Of a stretch of 11,156 bases of DNA, positions 1-7,802 are shown piece by piece (positions within the stretch are counted from its first letter, which is position 1; each line of letters opens with the position of its first letter). The notes under the pieces were generated by a model. It saw only the letters and a list, made by a program, of their open reading frames with translations, ran no database searches and had not been told where the DNA came from. Origin of the DNA: Nostoc sp. GT001 (GTDB lineage: Bacteria > Cyanobacteriota > Cyanobacteriia > Cyanobacteriales > Nostocaceae); NCBI RefSeq assembly GCF_030382115.1, contig NZ_JAUDRJ010000003.1:3314831-3325986 (forward strand). The letters are read 5' to 3'. A program made the position numbers and the translations under genes.

Positions 1-16
1 TGTCTCCCCCAATCCC

Positions 17-511
17 TCATCTCCCCATCTCTCCATTTCTCCATCGAGCGATCGCTCGAAAATATGCTGCAACTGGAATCTGATAGACTTCAATATAAAT
101 CCAAACAATAATTGATAAATGTGATAAGAAGGTTAATATCGTCCAAATATATGGCATCCAGGTAATGGGTTCCTTCAGATTAGCAGGAAAATAGTAAGCT
201 ACTATGCCAATTAGAGTAGTGGGAAGAATTATAAAAACTGCTGCTGCTAATCCATAACCCCAACCTAATTCCACACCTTCCAACTGGCCTTCTGTCCAAC
301 TAAACCCATTCCAACGCCAAGTTAAAGGTGGTTGCCTAGAAGGCATCTTGATTTGCTGTTGCTCTAAGTTGACTGTAAAAATCTCTTGGCAAAAGTCACA
401 AGCCATAGCTTCCATCAATGGCATGTGAGAAATCTTACCTATTCGACAAACTGGGCAGGGGTAAGCTCCATAATAGTCGAAAGATTGGGTTAAGATTTTG
501 GAACTGGGCAT
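17..511 (-). CDS. Zinc-ribbon, two-helix membrane protein of unknown function
   Basis: The product is a 164-residue protein that I do not recognise as a named family. Two CxxC pairs near the N-terminus (Cys19/Cys22 and Cys38/Cys41) look like a zinc ribbon, so metal binding in the cytoplasm is likely. Two strongly hydrophobic stretches, about residues 82-108 and 118-146, should be membrane helices. The C-terminal tail is short, basic and Arg-rich. The ATG at the right-hand end precedes the zinc ribbon closely, so this start is natural. The last codons fall in a C+T-rich simple repeat at the window edge, which may have reshaped the C-terminus, and a HIP1 palindrome lies inside the gene near position 52. 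It is divergent from the DAHP synthase leader and no partner gene is visible. The existence of the gene is likely, but its function is unknown. Confidence 0.75.
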   Translation of the reverse strand: MPSSKILTQSFDYYGAYPCPVCRIGKISHMPLMEAMACDFCQEIFTVNLEQQQIKMPSRQPPLTWRWNGFSWTEGQLEGVELGWGYGLAAAVFIILPTTLIGIVAYYFPANLKEPITWMPYIWTILTFLSHLSIIVWIYIEVYQIPVAAYFRAIARWRNGEMGR

Positions 512-865: not shown

Positions 866-894
866 TTGACAAAGCCTACTTTTCATGCTAATTT
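866..894 (+). promoter_or_regulatory. Probable sigma-70-type promoter for the DAHP synthase leader RNA
   Basis: A perfect TTGACA -35 (866-871) is followed by a 17-base spacer and TAATTT (889-894). The -10 itself is a weak match, but a TG one base upstream (886-887) gives it an extended -10 character. Transcription would begin near 901-903 and yield a leader of roughly 430 bases before the DAHP synthase start, containing the structured element, both terminators and the leader peptide. This is a consensus-based prediction only. A TATAAT at 786-791 is an alternative, but it lacks a good -35. Confidence 0.5.
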
Positions 895-983
895 TACTTC
901 ACATAGGTATATTTCTTAAGTTTTCCAGCAAAAAGTCCGCAAATGCTTAACACAAATTCCTACTTTTATTTTTGGTTTAGGGT

Positions 984-1033
984 GGTTCACCGGGGGTGAA
1001 TTAAGTTTCCTAATGGAAACCGCCCGGTGAACC
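984..1033 (+). promoter_or_regulatory. Structured leader RNA element: long stem with nested hairpin
   Basis: GGTTCACCGGG (984-994) pairs perfectly over 11 bp with CCCGGTGAACC (1023-1033). Inside it, GTTTCC (1005-1010) pairs with GGAAAC (1015-1020) around a TAAT loop. The last four bases of the outer stem (AACC, 1030-1033) are also the first four of the downstream terminator stem, so the two helices compete there. That layout resembles a sensor domain joined to a terminator. I do not recognise a known riboswitch class. It could instead be the body of a small RNA ending at the terminator. Confidence 0.55.
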
Positions 1034-1064
1034 GCAGAGCAAACTCTGCGGTTTTTGTTTTTTT
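1030..1064 (+). terminator. Strong intrinsic terminator upstream of the leader peptide
   Basis: AACCGCAGAG (1030-1039) pairs perfectly with CTCTGCGGTT (1044-1053) around a CAAA loop. The T-rich tract TTTTTGTTTTTTT (1052-1064) begins in the last bases of the stem. No plus-strand protein gene lies upstream, so it must end either a small RNA or the DAHP synthase leader transcript. The Shine-Dalgarno of the leader peptide begins at 1065, the next base after the T-tract. The four-base overlap with the upstream 11-bp stem makes it potentially conditional. Confidence 0.75.
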
Positions 1065-1082
1065 AAGGAGAATTTCATTGTC

Positions 1083-1124
1083 ATGACTTATTTCATTAGC
1101 TGGTTTTATGGCTTTTACTTTTGA
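1083..1124 (+). CDS. Aromatic-rich attenuator leader peptide for DAHP synthase
   Basis: The frame ATG...TGA encodes 13 residues, MTYFISWFYGFYF. Eight of the thirteen are aromatic: four Phe, three Tyr and one Trp. A Shine-Dalgarno AAGGAG lies at 1065-1070, 12 bases before the ATG. The stop codon is immediately followed by segment 1 of a set of alternative RNA stems that ends in a terminator. By analogy with trp, phe and his operon leaders, a ribosome stalled on Phe, Tyr or Trp codons when charged tRNA is scarce would cover segment 1 and leave segment 2 free to form the antiterminator. A ribosome reaching the stop would mask part of segment 2 and allow termination. The peptide itself needs no function. 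The composition, ribosome site, position and downstream gene all agree; the mechanism is inferred and not shown. Confidence 0.85.
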   Translation: MTYFISWFYGFYF

Positions 1125-1182
1125 GCCCAGAATAAATTCCGGGTAAATAGCGTCATGCCAATGAATCAGAACGCGCCCGGAA
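1125..1182 (+). promoter_or_regulatory. Alternative stems 1:2 and antiterminator 2:3 of the attenuator
   Basis: Segment 1 (GCCCAGAA, 1125-1132) can pair with segment 2 (TTCCGGGT, 1137-1144) around a four-base loop, with one A-C mismatch and one G-U pair. Segment 2 can instead pair with segment 3 (GCCCGGAA, 1175-1182) over eight base pairs, one of them G-U. Segment 3 is also the 5' arm of the terminator. The three helices are therefore mutually exclusive, as in the trp-type attenuator. Segment 1 starts directly after the leader peptide stop codon. Confidence 0.75.
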
Positions 1183-1203
1183 CTCTTGGTTTCGGGCTTT
1201 TTT
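1175..1203 (+). terminator. Attenuator terminator (stem 3:4) before DAHP synthase
   Basis: GCCCGGAA (1175-1182) pairs with TTTCGGGC (1190-1197) over eight base pairs including one G-U, with a seven-base loop, and is followed at once by six T (1198-1203). It lies 51 bases after the leader peptide stop and about 126 bases before the DAHP synthase ATG, so it would cut off the structural gene when formed. Confidence 0.8.
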
Positions 1204-4180: not shown

Positions 4181-4567
4181 CTACTTTGCTAAACTCCAGC
4201 CCAAGGCTACTGCTACCTCAGTAGCTAATTCTAGAGGATTGAATGGTTTAGCGATCGCACTAATCATTCCCATCTGGGTATAGCGACGGCGATCGGAAGC
4301 CTGGATTTTAGCAGTTAACAAAATTACTGGAATCGCTTTGGTTAATGGATTGGCTTGTAACTTTTCAAAGGTTGTGATGCCATCCATCTCTGGCATCATC
4401 ACATCTAGTAAAATTGCATCTGGTTGGTAAGTCTCAGCTTTAATTATGCCCTCTTGACCGGAACTTGCAGTCATTACTTTCCAGCCTGCGACTGTTTCCA
4501 AGCAAATCTTGGCAACTTCTTGAATATACTGCTCGTTATCAACCACTAGAATTTGCTTTGTTGTCAT
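4181..4567 (-). CDS. Single-domain CheY-like response regulator
   Basis: This is a 128-residue receiver domain with no output domain. Landmarks are Asp10 (in VDNE), the phosphoacceptor Asp55 (LLDVMMPEMDG), Thr85 (LLTA) and Lys107 (AKPFNP). The usual second acidic residue at the start is Asn-Glu instead of Asp-Asp, which is common. The start is the ATG at 4565-4567: an AGGA lies eight bases upstream, while the GTG one codon earlier is worse placed. The gene overlaps the 3' end of the histidine kinase frame by 29 bases, so the two are translationally coupled and the regulator is very likely a phosphorylation partner of that kinase. With no DNA-binding part, it probably acts as a phosphate shuttle or sink, or by protein contact. 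Confidence 0.9.
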   Translation of the reverse strand: MTTKQILVVDNEQYIQEVAKICLETVAGWKVMTASSGQEGIIKAETYQPDAILLDVMMPEMDGITTFEKLQANPLTKAIPVILLTAKIQASDRRRYTQMGMISAIAKPFNPLELATEVAVALGWSLAK

Positions 4568-5684
4568 CACTGCTATCCTCTTGTTGGTTCCGAGAAATTC
4601 CCTGAAATAACTTCATCACCCGTTGTTCAAATTCCTTGGTAGTCACACGCCCGTTGCTCGAAAATTCTGCATCTGGACTTTGTTGGCTATTTGTAGTTTG
4701 CTCGTAACTACTATGAATCATAGAGATGTTGGAAGAGTCTTCTAAATCAGTATTTTGGAAAGTCCTAAATAATGGCAGAGCGATGTAAAAAGTGCTACCT
4801 TTACCCAATGTACTTTCAGCCCAGATGCGTCCGCCGTGTTGTTGCATAATGCTCTTGCAAATTGCCAAACCCAAACCAGTCCCATCATGGTTGCGCGAAT
4901 CTGAAGAGTCAACTTGTTGAAAGCGCTCAAAGATACTCTCAAGTTTCTCTGTTGGGATACCGCGTCCGGTATCTTTGACTGTCAACAAAACCTCATTTCC
5001 TTGTTGTTGCGCCTCCAACCAAACCGTAGATCCAACAGACGAGAATTTAATGGCGTTACTCAATAGATTGGTCAATGTTTGGACAATGCGATCGCAATCT
5101 GCCAATACTTGGCCAGATTGGGCAGAAACAGATACTTTCACTCCTGCTTTGTCAGCTAAAGGCTGCATGACATTTACTGCTTGAGTAATTAAGTCAACGA
5201 TATTGCAGATTTCTGGTTCCATCTTTGCCTTACCCGACTCAATCCGCTCAATGTCTAGAATGTCGTTGATTAAACGTACTAGGCGTTCGCTGCTATCAGT
5301 CGCAATTTGCAGTAGGCGTTTTCCCTGCTCTGAGTCTGTTGGTAGCAAACCACTGGCTAGCATTCCTAGAGAGCCGTGAATCGAAGTTAAAGGTGTGCGG
5401 AGTTCATGACTAACAACAGAGACAAATTCATCTTTCATGCGTTCAATTAGTTTGCGCTCTGTGATATCTCGTAAAATAACCGTATAAAATATTTCCTCAG
5501 CCATCTCTATTTTGGAGATGGAAGCCTCCGCTGGAAATTCAGTCCCATCCTTGCGGCGTCCATAGATTTCACGCCGTTCTCCCATCCGACGGGCAACATT
5601 GGGAGATTGGCCAAAGTCAACCACATGTTGACGGTGTGCTTGAAAAAAGCGCTGCGGTAAGAGTAAATCAAGCGCCTTGTCCAA
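4539..5684 (-). CDS. Histidine kinase part of a frameshifted hybrid kinase (PAS C-half, HisKA, HATPase)
   Basis: These 381 residues are the C-terminal part of the gene upstream on the same strand, read in a different frame. Residues 4-75 are the second half of a PAS domain (RKDGTEFPAEASI, then RDITERK). Residues 83-150 are a HisKA dimerisation domain with phospho-accepting His93 in SHELRTP. The ATPase has the N box with Asn210 (SNAIKFS), the G1 box DTGRGIP from 238, the F box FERF (252-255) and the G2 box GTGLGLA from 268. The tail after about residue 290 is polar, Ser/Gln-rich and probably unstructured. The TTG at 5682-5684 is only where this frame opens; deleting one base restores the full PAS and joins it to the upstream frame. 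All catalytic residues are intact, so the kinase could work if a full-length protein is made or if translation restarts. It overlaps the response regulator gene downstream. Confidence 0.85.
   Translation of the reverse strand: MDKALDLLLPQRFFQAHRQHVVDFGQSPNVARRMGERREIYGRRKDGTEFPAEASISKIEMAEEIFYTVILRDITERKLIERMKDEFVSVVSHELRTPLTSIHGSLGMLASGLLPTDSEQGKRLLQIATDSSERLVRLINDILDIERIESGKAKMEPEICNIVDLITQAVNVMQPLADKAGVKVSVSAQSGQVLADCDRIVQTLTNLLSNAIKFSSVGSTVWLEAQQQGNEVLLTVKDTGRGIPTEKLESIFERFQQVDSSDSRNHDGTGLGLAICKSIMQQHGGRIWAESTLGKGSTFYIALPLFRTFQNTDLEDSSNISMIHSSYEQTTNSQQSPDAEFSSNGRVTTKEFEQRVMKLFQGISRNQQEDSSDDNKANSSG
5668..5684 (-). other. Apparent single-base frameshift inside the PAS domain
   Basis: Read on the minus strand, the upstream frame runs VIGQGA and stops at TGA (5668-5670). 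Skipping one G at 5674-5676 gives VIGQALDLLLP, which is the normal PAS sequence and continues in the downstream frame. The two frames overlap by 17 bases. A real mutation or a sequencing error is the simplest cause. Programmed +1 shifting at GCT-TGA is possible on paper, but lacks the CTT-TGA slip and the spacing seen in prfB. Confidence 0.85.
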
Positions 5685-7626
5685 TCACTTCCTGGGCAGA
5701 GTAGCCGAAAATCTTTTCTGCTCCTTGATTAAACAAAGTGATGCTTTGGAACCCGTTAATGGAAATAATTGCATCATCAGCAATATCTAAAATCCGTGCA
5801 AATCGGGCTTGAGAGAACCGTAATTCTCCCTGTGTTCGTTGACGTTCATCAAGTTGTGACTGCAACTGTTGATTCACCCGAATTAACTCAGCAGTGCGCT
5901 CTGCTACTCTCAATTCCAGTTCGTTGATGGCTTGTAAATTGAGAGATGAGGAAGGCAAAGAAGAATTTACTTCCCTATCTCCCCCTGCTTCCCCTGCCCC
6001 TCTGCCCCCCTGCCCCCCTGCCTCCCTACCTCCCTGCACGACACGCTGCCGCAATTTCATCCGTTCTAAGCGATTGACGATCCGGGTTACTAGTTCTGGC
6101 CCAACAATGGGCTTACTTACAAAGTCATCAGCACCAACGCTAAACACTTGATTTACCATCTCGGCATCGCTATGCACAGTCAGGAATAGAATGGGTAACT
6201 CACACCAGCGCGAATCGTTGCGTACTAATTGGCAAAGTTTTATACCACTTGTATAAGGTAATCCCACATCCAGAATCAGCATATCTGGCGTAACTATTTC
6301 CAAGATTTCCCAGAAATGACGCGGATCTTCAAGAGCGATCGCTTTTAGTCCCCAAGGACTAAGTAAGGTTTGTAAAAATGCTTGAATTTGCGGATCGTCA
6401 TCCACAACCAATATTTTAATTTCTGTATGGAGATCATTTTGCAGCGGTTGTGTGACTGTTTCTAAAACCTGTGGGGTTGGTGATGAAGATATTGCTGCTG
6501 CTTCGTTTCCGTCAATTTCCCGACGCAATAACTTTACCCAACTTTTGAGGTTGGTAATCTCAGATTGACTCAGTATTTGACCAGAACTCAGTAACAATTC
6601 GATATTGCGTGCCAATTTTGAGCCAAGAGGCAAGCCAAAAGTACCTAAAGATCCCGCCAAGGTATGCGCCTCTTTGGCTGCAAGCGATCGCAAATCGATA
6701 TTTAAACTATTTTGGTTTAAAGTTGCGATCGCTTCCTCCAGAAGCCTCACCTGCTCGTCTACCCGCCCTTGAAATCGTTGCCAAATTTCCGCAACTGCGA
6801 TTAATGTTTGCTGTTGTGATTTGAGATTGGGAACCAAAGATTTTTCACGCTCCCCTTCCCCCCTGCCCCCCTGCTCCTCTGCCCCTCTGCTCCTCTTCTC
6901 CTCTGCCCCCCTGCCCCTCTTCTCCTCTGCCCCCCTGCCCTTCTCCTCCTCTGCCAGTGGTTTCAGCCGATAGCCAATACCGTAAACTGTTTCAACCAAA
7001 TCATTGGGCGCTCCTAAAGCTTTGAGTTTGTGTCGTAACCCTTTGATATGGGTGCGAACAGCTTCTTCTTGTGGAGTGTCTTCATAACACCAAAGATGTT
7101 CTAAAATCATGCCGCAGCTAAACACTCGGCGAGTATTTCGCAAGAACAGTTCTAACAGAGCATACTCTTTGGGAGTCAGTGGCAGCAGATTTCCAGCATA
7201 CATCGCTTCACAGCTACTAGGATCTAGTCGCAACCCACCATACTCCAGCACAGGTTGCGAGGTTACGCCTTTACGACGCAACAGTGCCCGAACACGAGCA
7301 ATTAACTCTTCTGCATCAAAGGGTTTAACTACGTAGTCATCTGCGCCTGCATCTAATCCGATCGCTTTTTCATGACTACTATCGCACCCTGTCAATAACA
7401 ATATTGGCATTTGCAAATCACTAGACCGGATTTGACGACAAAGACTAATGCCATCCAGCTTGGGCAAGACTACATCTAGGAGAATTAAATCATAATCGTA
7501 AGTTTGAATAAAATTCCAAGCAGCATCTCCATCAGTGGCAACTTCAACCGCATAGTTTTGGTTAGTCAAAATGGTGGTGAGTGAATATGCACTTAACTCG
7601 TCATCTTCGACAACTAAAATTTTCAT
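5668..7626 (-). CDS. Receiver-wHTH-HPt-receiver-PAS part of a hybrid response regulator/kinase
   Basis: These 652 residues are the N-terminal part of a protein that would be about 1,030 residues if the frameshift were absent. Domains in order are: receiver 1 (1-118; Asp51, Thr79, Lys101), an OmpR/PhoB-type winged helix (about 127-224; TPKEYALLELF and YGIGYRL), a low-complexity Glu/Arg/Gly linker (226-262), an HPt domain with His321 in HTLAGSLGTFG, receiver 2 (about 403-525; Asp453, Thr483, Lys505), a Gly/Arg linker (532-552), a coiled coil (about 565-605), and the first half of a PAS domain up to the frameshift. The ATG at 7624-7626 opens the receiver as MKILVVEDD; a TTG 14 codons upstream adds nothing conserved. 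The protein joins DNA binding with phosphotransfer, so it should both relay phosphate and bind promoters. The target genes are unknown. Confidence 0.88.
   Translation of the reverse strand: MKILVVEDDELSAYSLTTILTNQNYAVEVATDGDAAWNFIQTYDYDLILLDVVLPKLDGISLCRQIRSSDLQMPILLLTGCDSSHEKAIGLDAGADDYVVKPFDAEELIARVRALLRRKGVTSQPVLEYGGLRLDPSSCEAMYAGNLLPLTPKEYALLELFLRNTRRVFSCGMILEHLWCYEDTPQEEAVRTHIKGLRHKLKALGAPNDLVETVYGIGYRLKPLAEEEKGRGAEEKRGRGAEEKRSRGAEEQGGRGEGEREKSLVPNLKSQQQTLIAVAEIWQRFQGRVDEQVRLLEEAIATLNQNSLNIDLRSLAAKEAHTLAGSLGTFGLPLGSKLARNIELLLSSGQILSQSEITNLKSWVKLLRREIDGNEAAAISSSPTPQVLETVTQPLQNDLHTEIKILVVDDDPQIQAFLQTLLSPWGLKAIALEDPRHFWEILEIVTPDMLILDVGLPYTSGIKLCQLVRNDSRWCELPILFLTVHSDAEMVNQVFSVGADDFVSKPIVGPELVTRIVNRLERMKLRQRVVQGGREAGGQGGRGAGEAGGDREVNSSLPSSSLNLQAINELELRVAERTAELIRVNQQLQSQLDERQRTQGELRFSQARFARILDIADDAIISINGFQSITLFNQGAEKIFGYSAQEVIGQGA
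5971..6033. repeat. In-frame C+T-rich simple repeat (second linker)
   Basis: Runs of CCCCCTG and CTCC units on the plus strand encode a Gly/Arg/Ala/Glu linker (about residues 532-552) between the second receiver and the coiled coil. The tract has the look of an intergenic simple repeat, yet its frame is open. Confidence 0.7.
6841..6951. repeat. In-frame minisatellite-like repeat (first linker)
   Basis: Four imperfect copies of a 21-24-base C+T-rich unit (CCCCTCTGC, CTCCTCTTCT and variants) encode repeated EEKRGRGA-type octads at residues 226-262, between the winged helix and the HPt domain. The copy number is likely to vary between strains. Confidence 0.75.
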
Positions 7627-7802
7627 GTTAAAAGGTTTCCAAGTTAAAATGGATATCACAGATAACAATTAATAAGCTTAAATGGCAAGTTTAATATAAT
7701 ATCAATACTTAATTTTAAAACATCTTCCAAAAGGTTTATATTTGCAGTTCAAAATCATTAACAAATATCAATATTGATTAATTTTAATTGGATTTTTTAG
7801 CT

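Follow-up and report, generated by a model that had tools for sequence, protein, structure and literature searches.

Tandem aromatic-rich leader peptides with predicted ribosome-mediated attenuators precede a DAHP synthase gene in Cyanobacteriia

The leader attenuators of Escherichia coli combine mutually exclusive hairpins, codons that match the product of the regulated pathway and an intrinsic terminator. Those of trp, phe and pheST appear in the cited passages as single attenuators, each for one amino acid (PMC11802643). A closer functional precedent is the aroR-aroF locus of Corynebacterium glutamicum, where a Phe-Tyr-Phe leader precedes a DAHP synthase gene and, in the sections cited, ribosome stalling is described as raising transcription under Phe limitation, with Tyr availability being without effect (Neshat et al., 2014; PMC11802643, PMC4046766). 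In Acholeplasma, the uORFC-13-1 motif is outlined as a terminator stem before aroF together with a predicted uORF that contains one or more Phe codons (PMC8632094). Attenuators in series are represented by the Salmonella mgtCBR leader, in which, according to the cited text, mgtM answers ATP and mgtP proline limitation (PMC3641672). As regards cyanobacteria, a comparative study from 2016 states in its cited part that there are no reliable data on attenuation (PMC4833913). The open-licence papers of PubMed Central, judged by title and the start of the abstract, yielded no attenuator of a cyanobacterial DAHP synthase, and the original prediction knew of no described case.

Here, we describe two leader modules arranged in series between a promoter-like site and a DAHP synthase gene of Nostoc sp. 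GT001 (Table 1). They lie in a stretch of 11,156 nt (contig NZ_JAUDRJ010000003.1, positions 3,314,831-3,325,986, forward strand; hereafter the window), and the genome holds a single copy of each. On comparative sequence grounds, we consider it very probable that they constitute a tandem ribosome-mediated transcription attenuation system sensing charged aromatic tRNAs. Exclusive hairpins, codons for the products of the pathway and an intrinsic terminator are shared with the E. coli systems; in the cyanobacterial version, however, the leader stop codon directly adjoins the arm of the antiterminator, and arm 1 is weak. As in the C. glutamicum locus, an aromatic leader peptide lies upstream of a DAHP synthase gene, but the sources cited describe one leader there, in another phylum, whereas here there are two in series, each with Phe, Tyr and Trp codons. 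The uORFC-13-1 motif, as outlined in its source, is also single, names only Phe and is limited to Acholeplasma and environmental sequences. The mgtCBR leader resembles ours in placing two short frames within one transcription-controlling leader, but its frames are said to answer two different signals, whereas both of ours carry codons for the same amino acid family.

Table 1. Coordinates of predicted features in the DAHP synthase leader region of the window
Feature	Coordinates	Strand	Remarks
Candidate sigma-70-like promoter	866-894	+	-35 TTGACA 866-871, 17 nt spacer, -10 TAATTT 889-894; consensus match
Module 1, whole	943-1064	+	Leader 1, antiterminator, intrinsic terminator
Leader peptide 1, MLNTNSYFYFWFRVVHRG	943-999	+	Stop TGA 997-999
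Module 1 antiterminator 5' arm, GGTTCACCGGG	984-994	+	Coincides with final codons of leader 1
Hairpin within module 1 antiterminator	1005-1020	+	GTTTCC/GGAAAC
Module 1 antiterminator 3' arm, CCCGGTGAACC	1023-1033	+	Last four bases double as the terminator 1 foot
Intrinsic terminator 1, AACCGCAGAG/CTCTGCGGTT	1030-1053, T-run to 1064	+	In 78/78 sequences
Shine-Dalgarno-like AAGGAG of leader 2	1065-1070	+	
Module 2, whole	1083-1203	+	Leader 2, arms 1-4, T-run
Leader peptide 2 as read in the window, MTYFISWFYGFYF	1083-1124	+	ATG 1083, stop TGA 1122-1124; 8/13 residues aromatic
Module 2 arm 1	1125-1132	+	Weakly conserved
Module 2 arm 2, antiterminator 5' arm	1137-1144	+	
Module 2 arm 3	1175-1182	+	Partner is arm 2 or arm 4
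Module 2 arm 4 and T-run	1190-1203	+	Arm 4 1190-1197, six T 1198-1203; intrinsic terminator 2 with arm 3
Type I beta DAHP synthase, 289 aa	1330-2199	+	Without N-terminal ferredoxin-like domain

The original prediction, made from the window alone, had placed a single attenuator at module 2. Its AAGGAG motif, 13-residue frame, stop codon, four arms and six T were all found where it had located them, as was the type I beta DAHP synthase gene downstream. Of its three mutually exclusive stems, 2:3 (one G-T pair) and 3:4 form the full eight pairs, while 1:2 forms seven of eight, with one A-C mismatch. The reported arrangement is real and forms the second half of a larger one, as a second module directly upstream (module 1) had been overlooked. 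The window by itself is not decisive for an attenuator, and it is conservation that decides. Among 2000 dinucleotide shuffles of positions 900-1330, 3.85% contain at least one start-to-stop frame with 6/9 aromatic residues and 0.2% contain two, the number seen in the real sequence; frames of this kind also occur 41 times per 879,462 strand-bases in the flanks of 80 relatives. The predicted fold of 970-1070 is far better than those of its shuffles (z -4.2, 0/200 as good), and that of 1083-1210 mildly so (z -2.1, 7/200 as good). A terminator scan found two sites against 1.0 (sd 1.3) expected.

Using the DAHP synthase protein, we retrieved 80 related loci, nearly all from Nostocales. Three of these (L019, L035 and L049), with 47-102 nt upstream, were left out of all leader counts, giving a close-relative set of 77 loci or, with the window, 78 sequences. 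Both leaders, along with terminator 1, occur in 78/78 of these, some loci below a script threshold having been read by eye. The script finds terminator 2 in 76/78, and the other two (L034 and L037) show it by eye with an interrupted T-run. Common leader forms in the relatives are ...SYFYFWFRVVHRE and ...SWFYGFYFWPRxxSG. A promoter-like motif, TTGACN-16..18-TANNNT, lies 5' of leader 1 in 136/138 loci, as opposed to 14/700 shuffled stretches, and in 119 of those 136 it is positioned 120-149 nt ahead of the leader 1 stop. The consensus promoter scan skipped the corresponding site in the window because its -10 box is weak, and it was recognised via this conservation.

Beyond the close relatives, covariance models of module 1 (R1) and module 2 (R2), built from 55 and 54 of the 78 sequences, respectively, were searched against 291 Cyanobacteriia genomes (E up to 0.001, strict filters). 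R1 matches 106 genomes (59/130 genera) and R2 matches 72 (42/130 genera), with one match per genome in each case and all 72 contained within the 106. A DAHP synthase gene lies 3' of the module in 103/104 loci, the remaining one ending with its contig. For R2, where 70/72 genomes were covered (G042 and G261 being left out), this holds for 69/70 loci, the exception again being a contig end; for the R1-only genomes it holds for 34/34, one gene being a remnant. Of these 34 loci, 28 also show a second leader. It was not seen at the remnant or in five members of family f21 (L156, L244, L245, L246 and L248), where module 1 was the only one seen before DAHP synthase and which are possible natural single-switch versions. 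At the remnant locus, L241 (G116:C48:73000-74400), module 1 stands beside a 77-residue match to DAHP synthase: the gene is decaying while its leader remains recognisable. Among 30 genomes that R2 does not match, a DAHP synthase is encoded in 26. The top hit in 24 of these is a longer paralog with 50-55% identity (G116, which also has the remnant, being one of them), and the remaining two have the short ortholog plus module 1. Within the sampled genomes, the device travels with the short enzyme. The upstream alignment set beforehand as a check thus reveals aromatic leader frames conserved both in Nostocales and in many other families of Cyanobacteriia, and the locus provides strong comparative evidence for what is probably attenuation across them.

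The alternative pairings could be parsed in 140/146 sequences for module 1 (20 distinct arm sets) and in 136/146 for module 2 (48 distinct sets). Among the six unparsed in module 1, L140, L028, L145, L146 and L151 have the module by eye, as does L091, albeit with a shortened leader; those missed in module 2 include L034 and L037, owing to their interrupted T-runs. We compared real arm combinations with 1000 swaps of arms between sequences, which ignore relatedness and so overstate significance: the 8-bp core of antiterminator 1 has 94.4% of cells paired (swap maximum 93.1%), the four-base-pair foot of terminator 1 100% (97.5%), antiterminator 2 89.3% (87.0%) and terminator 2 94.8%, a level attained in 3/1000 swaps. 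The module 2 swap test includes the window and L134, whose parse is a false fit. Covariation is weak in terminator 2, since most of the variation in arm 4 amounts to G-T wobble.

More weight is carried by the recurrence of compensatory changes in separate families; in this tally, the close-relative loci share one common tag, which is not a family assignment. In antiterminator 1, T-A changes to C-G in f26 and f34, A-T to G-C in f4, f6 and the close-relative set, and C-G to T-A in f26, f34 and the close-relative set. In terminator 1, A-T changes to G-C in f10, f17, f26, f35 and f36, and in antiterminator 2, T-A changes to C-G in f13, f14, f26 and f34. The module 2 tally omits L134 from both lists and the window from that of the antiterminator. 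In one locus (L107), strands 2, 3 and 4 of module 1 have changed together, and RNAalifold run on the close set alone reports one covarying pair in each module. The compensatory changes anticipated by the original prediction are therefore present in the antiterminators and the terminators, with fewer in the terminator of module 2. Together with the conserved aromatic frames, they support its reading of a probable trp-type, ribosome-mediated mechanism.

The geometry of the two modules is equally constrained. In module 2, the 8 nt immediately ahead of the leader stop form the best-pairing antiterminator arm in 132/136 loci, and in module 1 the arm begins 13 nt before the stop in 129/140. A ribosome at the stop codon would cover such an arm, whereas one stalled in the aromatic run would leave most or all of it free; the position on the leader would set which arm is masked. 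In the window, the alternative folds differ very little in energy (terminator versus antiterminator: -38.8 versus -39.7 kcal/mol in module 1 and -27.3 versus -27.6 kcal/mol in module 2), and in module 2 of a near relative (L002) the terminator fold is the more stable one by 3.3 kcal/mol (-28.5 versus -25.2).

The frames and their aromatic content, the alternative pairings and their covariation, the arm-to-stop geometry, the promoter-like site and the gene linkage all point to a common scheme, for which we infer translation, termination, a response to charging and a multiplicative logic. The RNA would start upstream of leader 1, and in each module a ribosome would translate the leader, a short frame that includes a stretch of Phe, Tyr and Trp codons. 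With charged aromatic tRNAs plentiful, it would reach the stop, which abuts or just follows the antiterminator 5' arm, and mask that arm, allowing the intrinsic terminator to form. With an uncharged aromatic tRNA, it would stall upstream and leave the arm free to pair with the upstream strand of the terminator hairpin, so that RNA polymerase would read on. As each of the two leader frames has its own alternative hairpins and terminator, both terminators would have to be passed, and the output would approximate the two read-through probabilities multiplied together. The enzyme, which carries out the first step in the synthesis of aromatic amino acids, would be made only when Phe, Tyr and Trp run short.

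In this respect, the window strain itself is atypical. The 13-residue frame, which the original prediction took for the normal leader, is a derived form of a longer conserved one: a single additional A at 1124, which the aligned relatives lack, creates a premature TGA that cuts leader 2 from 20 to 13 residues. In the relatives the frame reads on as ...FYFWPRxxSG, with a stop that abuts arm 2 and corresponds to positions 1144-1146. The insertion occurs in 0/50 other sequences of the same genus, in all 50 of which leader 2 is full length, and it may be a natural variant or a sequencing error. The truncated leader departs from the usual arm-to-stop geometry. As a ribosome at the premature stop would leave arm 2 free, module 2 of the window may read through whatever the supply; it may not work as described above, or may act differently after ribosome release.

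This frameshift, the presence of module 1 in more genomes (106 versus 72) and the five f21 loci with module 1 alone could be taken to mean that module 1 is the only true attenuator, with module 2 being a weaker or decaying copy that has no sensing of its own. We regard this as improbable, as module 2 retains its own aromatic run, the above geometry and a covarying antiterminator, and a second leader accompanies most of the R1-only loci too. Two functional switches in tandem remain the better reading.

The leader peptides themselves speak to what is being sensed. In rows that a script had pre-selected for at least five (leader 1) or at least four (leader 2) aromatic residues, which somewhat raises the percentages, six consecutive columns of leader 1 are 83-98% aromatic (114 distinct nucleotide sequences) and seven columns of leader 2 are 88-100% aromatic (108 distinct nucleotide sequences). 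More telling of selection for aromatic codons than the level of these percentages is the interchange of F, Y and W within the columns, where TTT/TTC and TAT/TAC also alternate. The six codons adjoining the stop are aromatic in 0-8% and track the antiterminator arm instead. A Shine-Dalgarno motif is mostly absent from leader 1 (present in 3/137 loci), and a similar motif precedes leader 2 in 54/121 loci having an in-frame ATG. These patterns bear on the proposal that the leaders act as regulatory arrest peptides. The nascent TnaC chain senses tryptophan within the ribosome, and the leaders, conserved at the peptide level up to their last codons, might similarly sense a free aromatic amino acid rather than tRNA charging. 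However, a specific arrest sequence should not tolerate swaps of F, Y and W at the same columns, an order that differs between families or last codons that track RNA pairing, rendering this very unlikely. Even less credence attaches to a trans-acting small RNA or functional small proteins, with termination before DAHP synthase being incidental: short terminated RNAs would indeed be released and conservation within Nostocales is high, but the alternative pairings covary and each of the 104 examined loci other than the one at a contig end precedes this same gene for DAHP synthase, intact or as a remnant. A riboswitch or T-box finds no support, as no Rfam 15 leader or T-box family matches at gathering score in the window or 12 distant relatives; a relaxed threshold gave six weak matches, all below gathering score and implausible.

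The ferredoxin-like extra domain (PF18152) of longer DAHP synthases gives allosteric control. It is absent from the window protein, which has the catalytic domain (PF00793), and from 5/5 scanned leader-bearing relatives, which likewise keep the catalytic domain. By contrast, it is present in 7/7 scanned paralogs, namely the two of the same genome (L082 and L083) and 5/5 from other genomes. By length, the window enzyme matches short solved enzymes such as 1zco, and the paralogs the longer 1rzm type. No aromatic leader was found within 600 nt upstream of L082 and L083 at a threshold of 5/9 aromatic residues, nor, at 6/9, before the longer paralogs at 27 loci of 24 genomes without an R2 match, apart from one unrelated aromatic frame in L170. 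Attenuation may stand in place of feedback inhibition for the short enzyme. We lean, with some reserve, towards seeing here an old, class-wide device in which serial attenuators act as a multiplicative gate and translation-coupled termination replaces the feedback inhibition of a domain-less DAHP synthase.

If so, cyanobacteria would have their first well-supported case of a ribosome-mediated attenuator. Such attenuation requires transcription and translation to be closely coupled: the leading ribosome would have to keep close to the cyanobacterial RNA polymerase, for which the locus gives a defined site, and the one-base insertion of the window strain would uncouple its second switch. Two serial switches for one amino acid family would be an unusual regulatory design. 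It suggests how flux through the shikimate pathway may be set by an enzyme that has no feedback domain, a point of relevance to cyanobacterial metabolic engineering.

Elsewhere in the same genome, the 500 nt upstream of three trpE-type (Anth_synt_I_N) loci and one prephenate dehydratase locus held no convincing leader attenuator. An aromatic-rich frame (MWKLPWHTWDLL...) does occur some 300 nt ahead of one trpE-type gene in this genome (L238). As a further observation on the window, a minus-strand frame with response regulator, Hpt and PAS domains (4539-5684) overlaps by 17 nt a separate minus-strand PAS-histidine kinase frame (5668-7668); given this overlap, the two may together represent a single hybrid kinase interrupted by a frameshift.
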